Below, one piece after another: positions 53,512 to 59,817 of a DNA stretch of 64,000 bases. Below the pieces are notes generated by a model. It saw only the letters and a program-made list of their open reading frames with translations, had not been told where the DNA came from and did no database searches. The stretch's first letter is position 1. Each line of letters opens with the position of its first letter. Source of the DNA: Halomarina oriensis (GTDB taxonomy: Archaea; Halobacteriota; Halobacteria; Halobacteriales; Haloarculaceae); assembly GCF_009791395.1 (NCBI RefSeq), contig NZ_WSZK01000006.1, positions 1 through 64,000 of the forward strand, given 5' to 3'. The translations under genes were made by a program, and so were the position numbers.

Positions 53512-54753
53512 ATGACTGGCGAGAACGATGGCGGTAGCCGCCGTGTATCGCGTCGACGACTCCTGACGACGGTCGGTGCGCTGGGTGCTGGGAGCGTCGC
53601 TGGCTGTCTCTCCGCGAGGGCCGACAGCCGCGAACCGCCACACCAGCGTGCGGGCGACGACCCGGCGATATTCGTCGACCGGTCGGAACTGGCGGCGGTC
53701 AGAGAGCGCGTCGACGCGGGCGAGGAGCCGTGGGCCAGTGCGTACGAGGCGTTCGTCGCCGACGCCGACGAGTCGCTCGACGCCGACCCGCTGAGCGTCA
53801 CCGACGACGGTGGCGGTCGCACGTTCGAGTCGAGCGACCCCGACGACGACTCGCGTGGTGACTACGCGGCGGCCATCGAGACGGGCGACCGGGTCCGGGA
53901 TCTGGGACTCGCCTACGAGTTGACCGGCGACGACGCCTACGCCGAGCAGGCCGTCGCCGTCCTCGACCACTGGTGTCTCGACCCGGACACCCGCATGGAA
54001 CCGGAGTTGACCGACAGCATCGAACAGTACGTCACGCTCCCGAAGCTGTGGTACGGTGCGGAACTCGTCGGTGACCACGACGCCTGGGACGACGTCGGCG
54101 GGTCGCCCGCGGCGATGGCCGACTGGGTGCGGTCGTTCGTCGACTCCGTCGGGACGGGCATCCCCGAGCGGGTCCAGAACATCTTCGTCTGGCGGGAGGT
54201 GGCTCGCGCCTCCGGCGCGGCGTACCTCGGCGACGACGACCTGTTGAGCGCGTCGTTCGACCGCCTCCGTGACCACGCGTTCGGTCAACTCCGACGCGAC
54301 GGCCTCCTCGAAGAGGAACTCGTCCGGAGCGAGGGGCTCTCGTACTCGCTGTACGCGCTGAAGGCGTTCGTCACGGCCGCGGAACTCGGTCGCCACTATG
54401 GTGAGTCGTTCTACGAGTACGAGCAGTACGGTCAGAGCGCGCTCAAACTCATGTTCGACGCCCACGCCGACTTCTTCTTCGACCCCGAGTCGTTCGACGA
54501 CCGGTACGGCGAGGTCGGCGGGTTCGCCGCCCGCGAACGGGAGGAGGGAACGTCGGCGTACGAACTCGCCTACTCCTACTGGGGCGACGAGCGCTATCTG
54601 GACGTCGTCGAGTCCGGCGGGAGCGAGATTACGAACGAACCGACGTACGTCCCACAGCACCAGGACGCCATCGACTCGTCGGGCCGTCCGGTGCGTGACG
54701 AGCGCCTGCTCGGGTGGACGACGCTCACCCACGGCAACCGCTTCGACCTCTGA
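53512..54753 (+). CDS. Alginate-lyase-like Tat-exported lipoprotein
   Basis: 413 residues. Tat signal SRRRLLTTVG (13-22) and lipobox VAGC (cysteine 32). The mature part is an alpha/alpha-toroid: PAIFVDRSELAAVRERVDA, LGLAYELTGDDAYAEQAVAV, TLPKLWYGAELVGD, IPERVQNIFVWREVARASG, RSEGLSYSLYALKAFVTAAE. These fit the PF05426 alginate-lyase family, which cleaves uronate polymers. It heads a polysaccharide-type cluster. Activity and substrate are inference. Confidence 0.78.
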   Translation: MTGENDGGSRRVSRRRLLTTVGALGAGSVAGCLSARADSREPPHQRAGDDPAIFVDRSELAAVRERVDAGEEPWASAYEAFVADADESLDADPLSVTDDGGGRTFESSDPDDDSRGDYAAAIETGDRVRDLGLAYELTGDDAYAEQAVAVLDHWCLDPDTRMEPELTDSIEQYVTLPKLWYGAELVGDHDAWDDVGGSPAAMADWVRSFVDSVGTGIPERVQNIFVWREVARASGAAYLGDDDLLSASFDRLRDHAFGQLRRDGLLEEELVRSEGLSYSLYALKAFVTAAELGRHYGESFYEYEQYGQSALKLMFDAHADFFFDPESFDDRYGEVGGFAAREREEGTSAYELAYSYWGDERYLDVVESGGSEITNEPTYVPQHQDAIDSSGRPVRDERLLGWTTLTHGNRFDL

Positions 54754-54783
54754 ACCGACCGCCGAGGACGCTCGGGTCGGGAC

Positions 54784-55854
54784 TCACTCCCTGAGAGTGC
54801 GACGACCGGCGAACGCCTCCGCCAGCGCGTCCGTCTCGCGGATGCTCGTCCGGGTGGTCGGCACCGCGGTGACCGTCGGTCCCGGTGCCGACTCGAACGC
54901 GAACACGGGAAGCTCGAACGCCGAACGACCGGTCAGGTCGCCGACCGCTCCTCGCATCGTCCGCTCGTAGTACTCGCTCCTGAGTCGGTAGTAGACGCTG
55001 TCGGGTGCGTACTTGAGGGCGCTGTAGAGCCGACCCGGTCGTGGGTTGACGAGTCCGTAGCCCGCGGCGAGCGCCTGCTCGACGAGCGAGGCGTCCCCCG
55101 ACGACGAACCGAGGAACCGCAGGTCACACTCCGAATCGGCGTAGAACTCGAAGACGTCGCGCCACGTCCACTGCGGCCGATTGACACAGGTGTACGTGCC
55201 CGGTTCGGGACCGGGTCGGGCGGTGTCGCTCGTCCCATCCTCGCTACTCGCCCGAGCACACGCGAGGACCGTCTCGCGGAGCGTGACGGTGTGGAGGACG
55301 TTCGACGGTCGCTCGGCGTCGGCAGCGACCGAGAGGTGGTCCCGTCCCTCGACCCCCGCGACGAGTTGGTCGGTCCAGTTCTGCTGTGGGCCGAGGACGT
55401 GCCCGAGACGGAGGACGTAGCCGTCCCGCCCCGTCTCCTCGCAGTGCTCCTCGAACACCGTCTCCTCGTGGCGTTTCATCTCGCCGTAGAAGTTGAACCC
55501 CTCGCTCAACTGGAAGACGGCGACGGAGCTGAACAGCACGGCCGTCGCGTCGGCGGGACTCCCCGACACCGCCCCGGTAACGATGGCCTCGTTGATGCGC
55601 TCGACCTCGCTCGGACTGTTGCTCTCGATGGAGGTTCGCGCGGAGACGACGACGACGTCCACGTCACCGAGCAGCCGGTCGGCGTCGTCGGAATCGGTCA
55701 CGTCGCCGACGCGAACGTCGAACCCCTGCTCGTCGAGGAACGCGCCGGCGAACGAGGTCCGAACGACGGGGACGACGGTCACGCCGGCCGCCTCCAGCAG
55801 CACCGAGAGTTCCATGCCGACGCTCCCGTTCGCGCCGACGACGCCGACCTTCAC
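54784..55854 (-). CDS. NAD(P)-dependent epimerase/dehydratase-like protein
   Basis: 356 residues. The Rossmann fingerprint is VGVVGANGSVGMELSVLLEA. Extended SDR pattern follows: VLFSSVAVFQLSEGFNFYGEMKRHEE (a Y-x3-K-like YGEMK), then a substrate domain WTWRDVFEFYADSECDLRF. Likely acts on a nucleotide sugar. It overlaps the Gfo/Idh/MocA gene by ATGA (55851-55854), so the two are one operon, the oxidoreductase first. Confidence 0.75.
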   Translation of the reverse strand: MKVGVVGANGSVGMELSVLLEAAGVTVVPVVRTSFAGAFLDEQGFDVRVGDVTDSDDADRLLGDVDVVVVSARTSIESNSPSEVERINEAIVTGAVSGSPADATAVLFSSVAVFQLSEGFNFYGEMKRHEETVFEEHCEETGRDGYVLRLGHVLGPQQNWTDQLVAGVEGRDHLSVAADAERPSNVLHTVTLRETVLACARASSEDGTSDTARPGPEPGTYTCVNRPQWTWRDVFEFYADSECDLRFLGSSSGDASLVEQALAAGYGLVNPRPGRLYSALKYAPDSVYYRLRSEYYERTMRGAVGDLTGRSAFELPVFAFESAPGPTVTAVPTTRTSIRETDALAEAFAGRRTLRE

Positions 55855-56894
55855 GGCTCGTCACCCCCGTCGGCCCCGTCGGTCCCGTCAGCCCCATTGA
55901 ACCCGTAGAGCGCCGTCAGGAGGCGTGAGACCGCCAGCCCGCTCTCTCGCTCCCAGTCGGTGTCCGACGACCGCAGGCTCTCCAGGAACGCCTCCCATCG
56001 CAGGTAGACGCCCTGTCTGAACGCCGTCGCCCACTCGTCGGCGGGGGCGAGTTCGAGCGGGCCGACTCCCGCGGGAGTCGGCTCTTCCGGCGTGACCCGG
56101 AGCGTCGCGTCGGGCGCGGCCGGGTCGAACGTCACCGTCGCGTGCTCGAACTCCAGTCGTACACGGTCGTCCGTCGGCGTCACCATCGTCACGAGCAGGT
56201 CGACGGGGACGCTCCGGTCGCCGGCCGTCGCCGTCAGCGACGCCTCCACCTCGACGTCCAGTCCTTCGTGCGTTCGGACGTCCGCTTCGGTGATGGACAG
56301 GTCGTAGCCCGCCAGGAGTCGCGTCACCTGACTGAGCAGGTGACAGCCCGACTCCGCGAGGACGCCGCCGCCGCTCAGGTCGGCGTCGAGACGGTAGCTG
56401 CCCGGACTGACGCCCTGTGCGCCGACGAAGCTCTCGGCGAACGAGGCCCGCTGGAGTTCACCGAACGCGTCGCCGGCGACGAGCGCGCTCGCCTGCCGCG
56501 TACTGGAGAAGAAGAGGCGGGTGTAGTTACAGCACATCGACGGCCCACGGTCGAGGAACCGTCGGTGGGTGTCGAGCGACGGTGCGAACGGCTTCTCCGC
56601 GAGCAACGGCGTCTCGCGGGTGCCGAACACCTCGACGTACTCCCCTCTGACGCCCACGGGGGTGGCGAGGACGGCGACGTCACACTGCGGGAGGGACGCC
56701 GCGTCGGTGACGGTGACGGCGTCGACGCCGTGTGCCCGGCCCACCGTCCTGGCCCGGTCACCGTCCACGTCGGCGACGTACGCCAGCGTGAGTTCGTCGA
56801 GTGTCGACACCGCCGGAATGTGGGCGAGTTCCGCCATCTCGCCCGCGCCGACGACGCCGACACGGTACTGCTCGCTCCGCGCGACTCGGCTCAT
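55851..56894 (-). CDS. Gfo/Idh/MocA-family oxidoreductase
   Basis: 347 residues. VGVVGAGEMAELAHIPAV (NAD fold), CDVAVLATPVGV, LLAEKPFAPSLDTH (EKP motif) and a C-terminal beta-sheet domain with DADLSGGGVLAESGCHLLSQVTRLL. It oxidises or epimerises a sugar or sugar acid. Its stop overlaps the SDR-like gene. The C-terminal tail is Gly/Asp-rich (GADGTDGADGGD). Divergent from the AsnB-like gene at 57045. Confidence 0.8.
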   Translation of the reverse strand: MSRVARSEQYRVGVVGAGEMAELAHIPAVSTLDELTLAYVADVDGDRARTVGRAHGVDAVTVTDAASLPQCDVAVLATPVGVRGEYVEVFGTRETPLLAEKPFAPSLDTHRRFLDRGPSMCCNYTRLFFSSTRQASALVAGDAFGELQRASFAESFVGAQGVSPGSYRLDADLSGGGVLAESGCHLLSQVTRLLAGYDLSITEADVRTHEGLDVEVEASLTATAGDRSVPVDLLVTMVTPTDDRVRLEFEHATVTFDPAAPDATLRVTPEEPTPAGVGPLELAPADEWATAFRQGVYLRWEAFLESLRSSDTDWERESGLAVSRLLTALYGFNGADGTDGADGGDEP

Positions 56895-57044
56895 GTGCCC
56901 GCTCACGAACAGTCGACTGTTAGTTACCGAGTCGCTACGCTCCGAGAGAGCGTGAACGGCCGGCGAGCGTGGCGACCCCGGTAGTATCGACGAACGTACA
57001 GTTCGCCGACTAACTATGCCCCCGATGCGTGATGATCCCGTACT

Positions 57045-58832
57045 GTGACCGGAATTGTCGGCGGAACGGTCGGTAGCGAGGGTGCGGCGACGATGGCGGC
57101 CCCGTTGAAACGCGAGTCGTGGTACGGCGAGGAGCGAGCGGAGACGGGGGCCCACGCGCTCGAACTCGTCCACCACGGGGAGCGTGACCCGGCGGGCCAC
57201 ACCGTCGTGGACGACGGCGGTGTCGTGGGGTTCGTCTACGGCGTCGTCTCCAACCACCCCGAGGGGTGGGCCGTCGCCGACCTGTTCGAGCGGGTGCTGG
57301 ACGACCCGGTGGCTACGCTCGAAGCCGTCGACGGCCCGTTCGCGCTGGCGTGTGCGGACCGCGAGACCGACCGACTGGTCGTGGCGACCGACAAGATCGG
57401 TGCCCGACCGCTGTACTACACGACGGGCGACGGTCTGGCGTTCGGCTCCGAGGTCAAGACCGTCCTGTCGTCCGTCGACGACCCGACGCTCGACGAGCAG
57501 GCGGTCTGTGACGTGATGAGCGTCGGCCACGTCTGGGGCCAGAAGACGCTCGTCGAGGAGGTCCGAGCGCTCCCGCCGGCGACGGCGCTGGTCTACGAGA
57601 ACGGCGAGGCCACGACCGAGCGCTACTGGAACCCCTCGTTCGAACCGGCGGAGTCGGGCGACGCGTACATGTTCGACCTGGCGAACCGCTACCGGGAGGC
57701 GGTGACGGACATGGCCGACAGCATCGACGGCGACGTGGGACTCTGGCTCTCGGGGGGTCTCGACAGCAGACCGATGGCCGCCGAGTTGACCCGGACGGCG
57801 GGAACCGAGGCCGGCGTCGACGGCGTCCGGACGTACAGCTACGACGCCAACCCCCCGACAGGCGGGAACCCGGCGCTCGCCGAGCGGGTGGCCGCGACGC
57901 TCGGCCTCGACAACGAACCCGTCGAACTCGGCGGCGAGACGTTCGCGGAGGTGGTCGAGGAGTGTATCGACGTGACCGACGGGATGTTGCGCTGGAACTC
58001 GTTCGTCAACATGTCGACGACGTTCTCGCTGCCCGACGACCACCCCGGTGTCGTGCTGGAGGCGGCCGCACAGGGCGAACTCCTCGGCGAACACCTGCTC
58101 CGCTACCACGTCGCGGACGCGGAGTCGGCCGCACGTGGGCACTACGAGCGCCAGGAGGCGGTCGACCCCGAAACCGTCGCCTCGCTGCTGACCATCGACG
58201 TCGACCCGATGGCGTCGTTCCGCGAGTCCGAACGGGCCAGCGAGGAGGCGACGATGCTCGAACGGGCGATGGACATCCACTTCCGGAACCACTACACGCG
58301 GTTCGTCTTCTCCAGCAACCCGCTCGCGCGGCGGAAGGTCGGCACCCGGACCCCGTTCGCCAACGGCGCGTTCCTCGAACACGTCGCTCGCCTGCCGACC
58401 GACTACCGGACCGGGTCGTTCCCGTTCACCGACGGGGCCATCCCGTACGGTGCCAGCAAGCCGAAACTCAAGCTCACCCGACTGCTGGACCAGGATCTCG
58501 CGTCCATCCCCTACGAACAGACCCGACTCCCGCCGACCTACCCCTACCCCGCCCACATCGCCGGGTTCGTCGCGGCGACCGGCTACAACCGGGTCGTCGG
58601 TGGGATGACGTACGGCGGACTGTCGCTTGCCGACGAGTGGTACCGGACCAACCCCCAACTCCGGGCGTACGTCGACGGCCTCGTCGACGACGCCTGCGAG
58701 CGTGACCTGTTCGACGCCGACCACCTCCGGGCGCTCAGGGACGAACACCTCGCCGGTGAGGGCAACCACATCTTCGTCCTCGCACCCGTGACGACGCTCG
58801 AAGCGTGGATACAGCGCTACCTCGACGACTGA
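57045..58832 (+). CDS. Asparagine-synthase-like protein lacking the glutaminase cysteine
   Basis: 595 residues from GTG. The N-terminal glutaminase fold (about 1-190) begins VTGIVGG instead of MCGI, so the catalytic Cys2 is absent. The PP-motif in the C-terminal domain is LWLSGGLDSRPMAAEL (236-242), with S-G-G-L-D-S-R. FVYGVVSNHPEG, DKIGARPLYY and PYGASKPKLKLTRLL are conserved. It could amidate or adenylate a carboxylate using ammonia, likely on a polysaccharide or its precursor. GTG start with no ATG. Confidence 0.8.
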   Translation: MTGIVGGTVGSEGAATMAAPLKRESWYGEERAETGAHALELVHHGERDPAGHTVVDDGGVVGFVYGVVSNHPEGWAVADLFERVLDDPVATLEAVDGPFALACADRETDRLVVATDKIGARPLYYTTGDGLAFGSEVKTVLSSVDDPTLDEQAVCDVMSVGHVWGQKTLVEEVRALPPATALVYENGEATTERYWNPSFEPAESGDAYMFDLANRYREAVTDMADSIDGDVGLWLSGGLDSRPMAAELTRTAGTEAGVDGVRTYSYDANPPTGGNPALAERVAATLGLDNEPVELGGETFAEVVEECIDVTDGMLRWNSFVNMSTTFSLPDDHPGVVLEAAAQGELLGEHLLRYHVADAESAARGHYERQEAVDPETVASLLTIDVDPMASFRESERASEEATMLERAMDIHFRNHYTRFVFSSNPLARRKVGTRTPFANGAFLEHVARLPTDYRTGSFPFTDGAIPYGASKPKLKLTRLLDQDLASIPYEQTRLPPTYPYPAHIAGFVAATGYNRVVGGMTYGGLSLADEWYRTNPQLRAYVDGLVDDACERDLFDADHLRALRDEHLAGEGNHIFVLAPVTTLEAWIQRYLDD

Positions 58833-58953
58833 CCCGTCGGGAAACCCGCCGGCCATCGAGCGGTCGAGCGGTCGGCCGACCGCGACTCGACCGGTATCGC
58901 TCCACCGACGTGTCGGCTCCCTGTCGCTGCCGACGGCAAGCAATCGGCGAGGG

Positions 58954-58960
58954 TTTATAT
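58954..58960 (+). promoter_or_regulatory. TATA box of the 58983 lipoprotein gene
   Basis: TTTATAT lies 23-29 nt before the ATG, supporting a leaderless start. Confidence 0.6.
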
Positions 58961-58982
58961 TGCGGTACGAGAATATCTACCG

Positions 58983-59744
58983 ATGAGACCGGTCGTCTCC
59001 CGTGTCCTGCTCGCCCTGCTGGTCGTGCTGGCGGGCTGTAGCGCCGGGAATCTCCCGGAGACGAGCGGCCCGACGGTGACGCCGGCGGCGGTGCCCGTCT
59101 CTCCGCCACCGGGGCTCTCGGAGACGGGAGTGGTGAACGCGAGTCGACTCGTCGCCGGACACGTCGCACTGTTGACGAACACGACGGCGACGCGCAGCAC
59201 CAACCGGACCGTCGGCTACCCGAACGGGACGCTCGTCGTCGAGAACCGGACGACGTGGGCCGGCGAGGAGGGTCGCCTCGTCGTCGTCCGGACTCGCCAC
59301 CCCGGCGGCCCCGGCGGCTACGCACGGTGGCAGAACGGTTCGCACGTCGTCGGCTGGGTCGAGAGCGCCGACCGGCGACAGTACTACACGCTGGAGGCGT
59401 CGTCGACGCCGTTCGCGGGTGTCGACCCGCTGGGCGACCACCTGTCGGCCGCGCTGACGACGCAGCGAGGGGCGTCGGTCACCCCCGTCGACTGCGGCGA
59501 CGACCGCTGTCTCGAGGTCGCGTTCTCGCTCGACGAGCGACTCGTCTGGGGCGACGGCTACCCGGCGACGGGACCGGTTCGCTACCGACTCACCGTGACG
59601 ACCGACGGACTCGTCCGCCATCTGGTCGTGACCTGGGCGGCCCGAAGCGGCGACCGGACGGTGACGGTGATCGAACGGACGACATTCCGGAACGTGGGGT
59701 CGACGAACGCCACCGCTCCGAACTGGGCCGTCGACCGAATCTGA
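58983..59744 (+). CDS. DUF7537-like lipoprotein, unknown
   Basis: 253 residues. The signal LLALLVVLAGC has a lipobox with cysteine 19. NRTVGYPNGTLVVENRTTWAG, AARSGDRTVTVIERTTF and repeated N-x-S/T sites suggest an exported, probably glycosylated, surface lipoprotein of the haloarchaeal DUF7537 type. One Cys pair (DCGDDRC) may form a disulfide. Function unknown. Confidence 0.78.
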   Translation: MRPVVSRVLLALLVVLAGCSAGNLPETSGPTVTPAAVPVSPPPGLSETGVVNASRLVAGHVALLTNTTATRSTNRTVGYPNGTLVVENRTTWAGEEGRLVVVRTRHPGGPGGYARWQNGSHVVGWVESADRRQYYTLEASSTPFAGVDPLGDHLSAALTTQRGASVTPVDCGDDRCLEVAFSLDERLVWGDGYPATGPVRYRLTVTTDGLVRHLVVTWAARSGDRTVTVIERTTFRNVGSTNATAPNWAVDRI

Positions 59745-59817
59745 GAGTCGACGACCCGCGCGGCCCACGCGACCCTCGCCGTCGCCCGACGCTGTCGCTG
59801 TACCGGGTGTCGGAGTG

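Follow-up and report, generated by a model that had tools for sequence, protein, structure and literature searches.

What does an asparagine synthetase (AsnB) homologue do when its glutaminase cysteine is missing? The question is raised by a gene of the haloarchaeon Halomarina oriensis, located in the window analyzed here (the whole 64,000-nucleotide stretch, positions 1 to 64,000 of contig NZ_WSZK01000006.1). An earlier, sequence-only reading had described an N-terminus of VTGIVGG without Cys2 and a PP-loop of SGGLDSR, and both are confirmed in the open reading frame, which begins with GTG and encodes 595 residues with the N-terminus V(M)TGIVGG. The gene and its landmarks are as follows.

57,033 to 57,035, forward strand: in-frame TGA stop codon (from the sequence).
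57,045 to 58,832, forward strand: AsnB-like protein of 595 residues with a predicted dead glutaminase and the PP-loop SGGLDSR, named here the haloarchaeal DSR / MTG subfamily (open reading frame, Pfam, orthologues, alignment, AlphaFold and tree).
57,750 to 57,770, forward strand: codons of SGGLDSR, the PP-loop at residues 236–242, within LSGGLDSR at 235–242 (sequence and alignment numbering).

The codons TCC-CGT-ACT precede the GTG and are themselves preceded by the in-frame TGA, which closes the frame upstream and thus rules out a start that would restore an MCGI N-terminus. A separate seven-codon reading frame (57,025–57,048; ATG CGT GAT GAT CCC GTA CTG TGA) has a stop codon, TGA, that shares bases with the GTG start, an arrangement that could reflect translational coupling or chance. 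Pfam detects an Asn_synthase domain in the protein (4.4e-13) and a GATase_7 remnant covering profile positions 69–122 only, without the N-terminal half that bears the catalytic cysteine. The protein also scores far below the curated cut-off of every AsnB-type NCBIfam model, with 115.7 bits against TIGR01536 (cut-off 267.1), 79 bits against TIGR03108, the XrtA/PEP-CTERM amidotransferase (816.9), 72.7 against TIGR03104 (570.1) and 59.6 bits against the lasso-peptide cyclase NF033535 (525).

To describe the active sites, residues of the glutamine and synthetase sites were mapped on E. coli AsnB using an alignment of 50 family members. Across 62 members, the target included, position 2 is Thr in 44, Pro in eight, Val in six, Ser in three, Arg in one and Cys in none. 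Because Cys2 is missing from every one of the 62 and DS is followed by R in essentially all of them, the loss is not a sequencing error, a single-genome oddity or a chance substitution. E. coli Cys1, Arg49, Asn74, Glu76 and Asp98 correspond in the target to T2, A38, Y65, V67 and a deletion. Within the family, the Arg49 column contains Gly or Ala in 38 of 50 members (Arg in four), the Asn74 column Tyr or His in 42 (Asn in three) and the Glu76 column Ala or Val in 45, while the Ser-Asp98 stretch is deleted and Gly75 is the sole residue of the glutamine-site motif (Asn74-Gly-Glu76) to be kept. Sampled MCGI-type haloarchaeal homologues retain RRLSI/L, NGE and the acidic TE/SE stretch. Judged from these residues, the glutaminase reaction has almost certainly been lost from the family. 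Ntn hydrolases that use threonine exist, and Thr is the most frequent residue at position 2, which would fit a Thr-dependent glutaminase persisting with Thr2 as an alternative N-terminal nucleophile. However, position 2 also tolerates Pro, Val and Arg, which argues against a conserved Ntn nucleophile, and the equivalents of Arg49, Asn74 and Asp98 are gone, leaving this explanation very improbable indeed.

The H. oriensis genome also encodes a canonical AsnB (contig C6; MCGIGG...RRLSI...NGEIYN...GDAGDE), a second DSR-type asparagine-synthase-like protein (L002, contig C7) with SGGYDSR and no recognizable glutaminase N-terminus, and a PP-loop protein of apparent LarE type that is unrelated to them. 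A family tree of haloarchaeal AsnB-like proteins, a check that the sequence-only reading had proposed, was determined by quick search with SH-aLRT support from 78 representative proteins (77 haloarchaeal sequences and E. coli AsnB). The 51 sequences that combine SGGxDSR with the absence of Cys2, including the target, form one side of a branch with SH-aLRT support of 98, and the 32 sequences of the target subfamily are supported at 100. Cys2 proteins in the tree carry SGGxDSS/T. As a single branch holds the combination, the DSR motif and the Cys2 loss point to one old event followed by inheritance, not to repeated coupling. A small DSS/T clade with Ser, Gly or Thr at position 2 sits between the Cys2 and DSR groups, and one DSS row that appeared to lack the cysteine (L044) is a trimming artefact, its sequence reading MCGI. 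Other haloarchaeal SGGxDSR proteins (L243, MVGL...SDSR; L018, MPGT...LDSR; and L002, YDSR) share the wider clade and, like the target, lack Cys2, but they form separate subfamilies; in some, the G-x-x-x-D motif has kept its Asp (SGLYAD, TGDGGDK), whereas the target subfamily has lost it. A further set of haloarchaeal AsnB homologues (L228, L230, L241, L247 and L257), with MSGI or MGGI, HRGPD or HQGPD, and SGGLDSS, represents a second, separate group in which Cys2 was lost to Ser or Gly and DSS was kept.

Full-length orthologues at 31–59% identity were found by whole-genome search in 61 of the 392 genomes of the order, and none was found in seven other genomes of the genus. A wide scan of 84,980 species used the exact pattern WLSG[GD][LA]DSR derived from the alignment and, as it requires an exact match, is not exhaustive. 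It returned 45 loci, of which 44 are haloarchaeal (in Haloferax, Haladaptatus, Halorubrum, Halogranum, Halobellus, Haloarcula, Halococcus thailandensis, Halobonum tyrrellensis and others) and one is a distant Heimdallarchaeota match at 27%. Scanning genome contigs with the single target protein as the query gave no match, compared with the 45 loci from the alignment-based scan.

As read from the alignment, the synthetase site retains its ATP-binding loop and is rewired on the acceptor and metal side. The PP-loop residues Ser, Gly, Gly, Asp and Ser are kept in 45, 49, 44, 49 and 49 of 50 members, and SGGLDSR occurs verbatim in most members across the range of 31–59% identity. The residue that follows DS (R242) is Arg in all 50; compared with SGGLDSS, this Arg alone leaves the ATP motif SGGxDS unbroken and is a marker of the clade. 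Equally invariant are R435, the invariant Arg of the xARVPF motif, and columns that include G66, D105, D116, Y194, W195 and R553. The AsnB sequence SGEGSDE has become E-G-x-G-Q-G-E in the family (EAAAQGE in the target), a registration that is identical in a profile-profile alignment, and the GEGxDE motif with Glu348 and Asp351 is absent. The Glu348 column is mostly Ala, Ser or Cys, the Asp351 column is Gly in 41 of 50, and a new Glu (E339) appears at the Ser346 position in 43 of 50. In beta-lactam synthetase, the Asp351 equivalent is a Mg ligand. Placement of Lys449 is ambiguous: depending on which of two methods is used, it falls on Y490 or on a region near residue 515, and no conserved lysine is found at either. 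K474 (Lys in 44, Lys or Arg in 49 of 50 members) and R492 (mostly Arg, with Gln in the target) are candidate substitutes, with the equation of K474, Y490 or R492 with Lys449 differing between alignments. Given the replaced Glu348 and Asp351 and the insecure position of Lys449, adenylation by the family is not assured.

A subgroup in a Halosimplex-related genus (L061–L067) has a degenerate PP-loop, for example WFPGDADSR, in which D, S and R are kept; its members may be pseudoenzymes with a conserved neighborhood. Such degenerate loops, together with the loss of the Glu348 and Asp351 equivalents and the insecure Lys449, lend weight to the idea that the AsnB fold is repurposed or non-catalytic here and binds a nucleotide, nucleotide-sugar or glycan as a scaffold, as a regulator or for other ATP chemistry, without AMP-forming amide synthesis. 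The wide range of chemistry performed by N-type ATP pyrophosphatases (PMC6594144) is consistent with this idea. In contrast, the verbatim SGGLDSR of most members, the clade-specific E339 (43/50) and K474 (44/50), and the unvaried R242 and R435 (50/50) argue for a selected active site, and we therefore regard a repurposed or inactive fold as a serious but unlikely explanation.

AlphaFold, run on the 50-row alignment, predicts an AsnB-like fold with a mean pLDDT of 93.4 and a pTM of 0.93. The earlier remark that the fold otherwise looks complete is thus borne out for the fold itself but not for the active site, given the replaced Glu348 and Asp351 and the unplaced Lys449. The target resembles AsnB (TIGR01536; PDB 1CT9) in its two-domain architecture, SGGxDS PP-loop and xARVPF Arg (R435), but differs in lacking equivalents of Cys2, Arg49, Asn74 and Asp98, in its replaced Glu348 and Asp351, and in having DSR for DSS. 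The best PDB match is the hydroxyamidotransferase TsnB9 (7YLZ; E 2.9e-22, TM 0.65–0.70), which is nonetheless a natural-product enzyme at 17–18% identity, and the next matches are beta-lactam synthetase, AsnB and carbapenam synthetase (TM about 0.5–0.65), all top matches lying at 14–18% identity. Beta-lactam synthetase (1JGT) and carbapenam synthetase (1Q15) use the AsnB fold with the amidotransferase reaction swapped for another amide-forming use, and both have a Tyr at the 348 position, part of a Tyr-Glu catalytic dyad. A Tyr-Glu dyad is named in the title of reference 68 in PMC13060819. The target shares with these two enzymes an AsnB fold outside glutamine-dependent asparagine synthesis, but it has 14–16% identity to them and its family, with Ala, Ser or Cys at position 348, lacks the Tyr of the dyad. 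The comparison suggested by the sequence-only reading therefore supports a likeness at the level of the fold and not a closer kinship, TsnB9 being nearer (TM about 0.7). A natural-product ligase, whether similar to beta-lactam and carbapenam synthetases or not, that uses intramolecular amidation to close or join a small molecule would fit the presence of these non-asparagine enzymes among the best fold matches and the profile matches to 1jgt and 1q15. Nevertheless, the closest fold match is to a different enzyme, position 348 is not Tyr, and the neighborhoods examined contain glycosyltransferases and flippases with no recurring natural-product genes, making such a ligase improbable.

These neighborhoods were surveyed at 55 orthologue loci (up to 20 kb each), with 20 regions from the same genomes as controls. 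A GT4, GT2 or flippase gene is present in 34 of the 55 neighborhoods and in one of the 20 controls, a contrast that is partly circular because the neighbor-counting HMMs were built from the orthologue loci, the Pfam names being independent. By family, the counts among the 55 loci are 26 for Tat beta-helix proteins, 22 for GT4, 20 for flippases (which are Wzx-type), 17 for sulfatase-like proteins, 12 for GT2, 11 for FemAB/GNAT, 10 for sulfatases, nine for DUF1616 and eight for ATP-grasp. Glycosyltransferases, flippases, sulfatases and beta-helix proteins together support the glycan setting previously proposed for this glutaminase-dead homologue, and we consider a surface-glycan setting of the family likely. 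The beta-helix proteins are large, right-handed and Tat-exported, directly adjoin the orthologues (L092:6549–8756, L093:11135–14296, L099:11142–13478 and relatives), have almost no Pfam coverage and are candidates for polymer-acting enzymes. One neighbor family has a sub-threshold match (E 0.02) to the C-terminus of D-glucuronyl C5-epimerase.

The same surveys bear on a simpler proposal, that the protein is an asparagine synthetase that has lost its glutaminase and depends on ammonia. AsnB mutants with a dead glutaminase are able to use ammonia. Yet the intact glutamine-type AsnB of the same genome, the replacement of Glu348 and Asp351, the sporadic spread (61 of 392 genomes) and the glycan neighborhoods all speak against it, and we assign it little probability.

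At the H. oriensis locus, blastn against six genus-mate genomes delimits an insertion with syntenic flanks, and the features of this region, in addition to the AsnB-like gene, are as follows.

53,512 to 54,753, forward strand: alginate-lyase-family Tat-signal protein in the left flank, outside the insertion and part of the genus core (Pfam PF05426, 3e-39; genus-mates).
54,751 to 59,795, no strand: insertion of about 5.05 kb, absent from genus-mates.
54,784 to 55,854, reverse strand: NAD-dependent epimerase/dehydratase, co-inserted, with a 4-base overlap with the Gfo/Idh/MocA gene (Pfam; conserved pair).
55,851 to 56,906, reverse strand: Gfo/Idh/MocA-type oxidoreductase, co-inserted and divergent from the AsnB-like gene (Pfam, gene call and the pair in L189).
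58,983 to 59,744, forward strand: lipoprotein-like protein within the insertion, with a weak DUF7537 match (7.7e-6, below the curated cut-off; open reading frame and Pfam).

The distance between the flanks is about 65 to 120 bases in three genus-mates and about 325 and 520 bases in two others, and one further genus-mate is missing the alginate-lyase-like gene too. Among the genus genomes compared, only this one thus has the block, whose genes encode the epimerase, the Gfo/Idh/MocA-type oxidoreductase, the AsnB-like protein and the lipoprotein-like protein. Mobile-element ends were considered and rejected, since no convincing terminal repeats were found at the insertion and no transposase gene is among its open reading frames; its composition gives no signal either (GC 0.696, compared with 0.678 for the window). 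The sugar-modifying neighbors from which a glycan substrate had first been suggested fare unevenly. The epimerase and Gfo/Idh/MocA genes were co-inserted with the target and are conserved as a pair in a genus-mate cluster (L189) with GT4, GT2, flippase, sulfatase and nucleotidyltransferase genes, but the pair does not recur with orthologues and the alginate-lyase-like gene belongs to the genus core. The latter was dismissed as a functional partner because the insertion site lies 3′ of it and the gene is present in genus-mates that lack the insertion. A conserved lyase-epimerase-Gfo-AsnB operon was also discarded, as homologues of the three neighbors are found at no other orthologue locus. Four genomes of roughly 1 Mb and 38% GC that are placed in the same order (L288–L291) carry the Gfo/Idh/MocA-epimerase pair, which is otherwise rare in haloarchaea, with no AsnB-like gene found on the stretches read. 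In addition, one contig end (C26, 1–137) is 98% identical to window positions 54,401–54,536 inside the alginate-lyase-like gene, representing a second copy or an assembly repeat.

What reaction might the target then perform? With slightly less than even confidence, we favor a glutamine-independent, ATP-using ligase that modifies a surface glycan, with a uronic acid as the best guess for the group modified. The N-terminal domain would be retained as a structural shell, and the C-terminal ATP-pyrophosphatase domain would bind ATP through SGGxDS and most likely adenylate a carboxylate, perhaps a uronic-acid carboxylate on a surface or cell-wall glycan or on a precursor of it. A nucleophile that does not come from the enzyme's own hydrolysis of glutamine would attack the adenylated carboxylate to give a uronamide, an amide-linked substituent or a cross-link; the candidates are free ammonia and amines such as amino acids and amino sugars. 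Amide formation on a carboxyl group seems likeliest because the donor is not glutamine, ATP use is probable and the pathway is that of a surface glycan. Taken separately, AMP-forming ligation by the family has about an even chance, and uronic acid as the substrate is a more doubtful, if possible, choice. The AsnB-type enzyme WbpS (PGN_1234) makes glucuronamide, a uronamide, in Porphyromonas gingivalis (PMC7468200). WbpS and the XrtA/PEP-CTERM amidotransferase are AsnB-type proteins of glycan pathways to which the target, considering its TIGR03108 score, is alike by type only, and literature searches turned up no AsnB-like glycan enzyme in haloarchaea. The altered synthetase site, the degenerate WFPGDADSR subgroup, the partner genes that do not recur and the occurrence of glycosyltransferases or flippases in only 34 of 55 neighborhoods count against the ligase reading.

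The family is a clade-wide AsnB-fold variant whose rewiring goes further than the sequence-only reading had noticed. Haloarchaeal proteins annotated as "asparagine synthase" are in many cases probably not asparagine synthetases, a caution for reconstructions of nitrogen metabolism. Uronic acids are abundant in the surface polymers of haloarchaea, and the clade, with SGGxDSR and no Cys2 as its marker, provides a testable set of candidates for the enzymes that modify their carboxylates. If the reaction proves to be amide ligation with an amine other than ammonia, the AsnB fold would have a novel role in the cell walls of archaea. It is conceivable, but rather improbable, that glutaminase-less AsnB-type ligases join an amino acid or amino sugar (e.g., glycine) to the uronic acids of haloarchaeal surface polymers; if so, a rewired synthetase site would give archaea a route to peptide-like cross-links in a peptidoglycan-free wall. 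Halococcus wall polymers contain uronic acids, and the wall polysaccharide of Halococcus morrhuae also contains N-glycyl-glucosaminyl bridges (PMC4187196). One to three members of the family are present in six of the ten genomes of a genus that is apparently Halococcus (it holds Halococcus thailandensis), a link to the Halococcus wall that is suggestive only.
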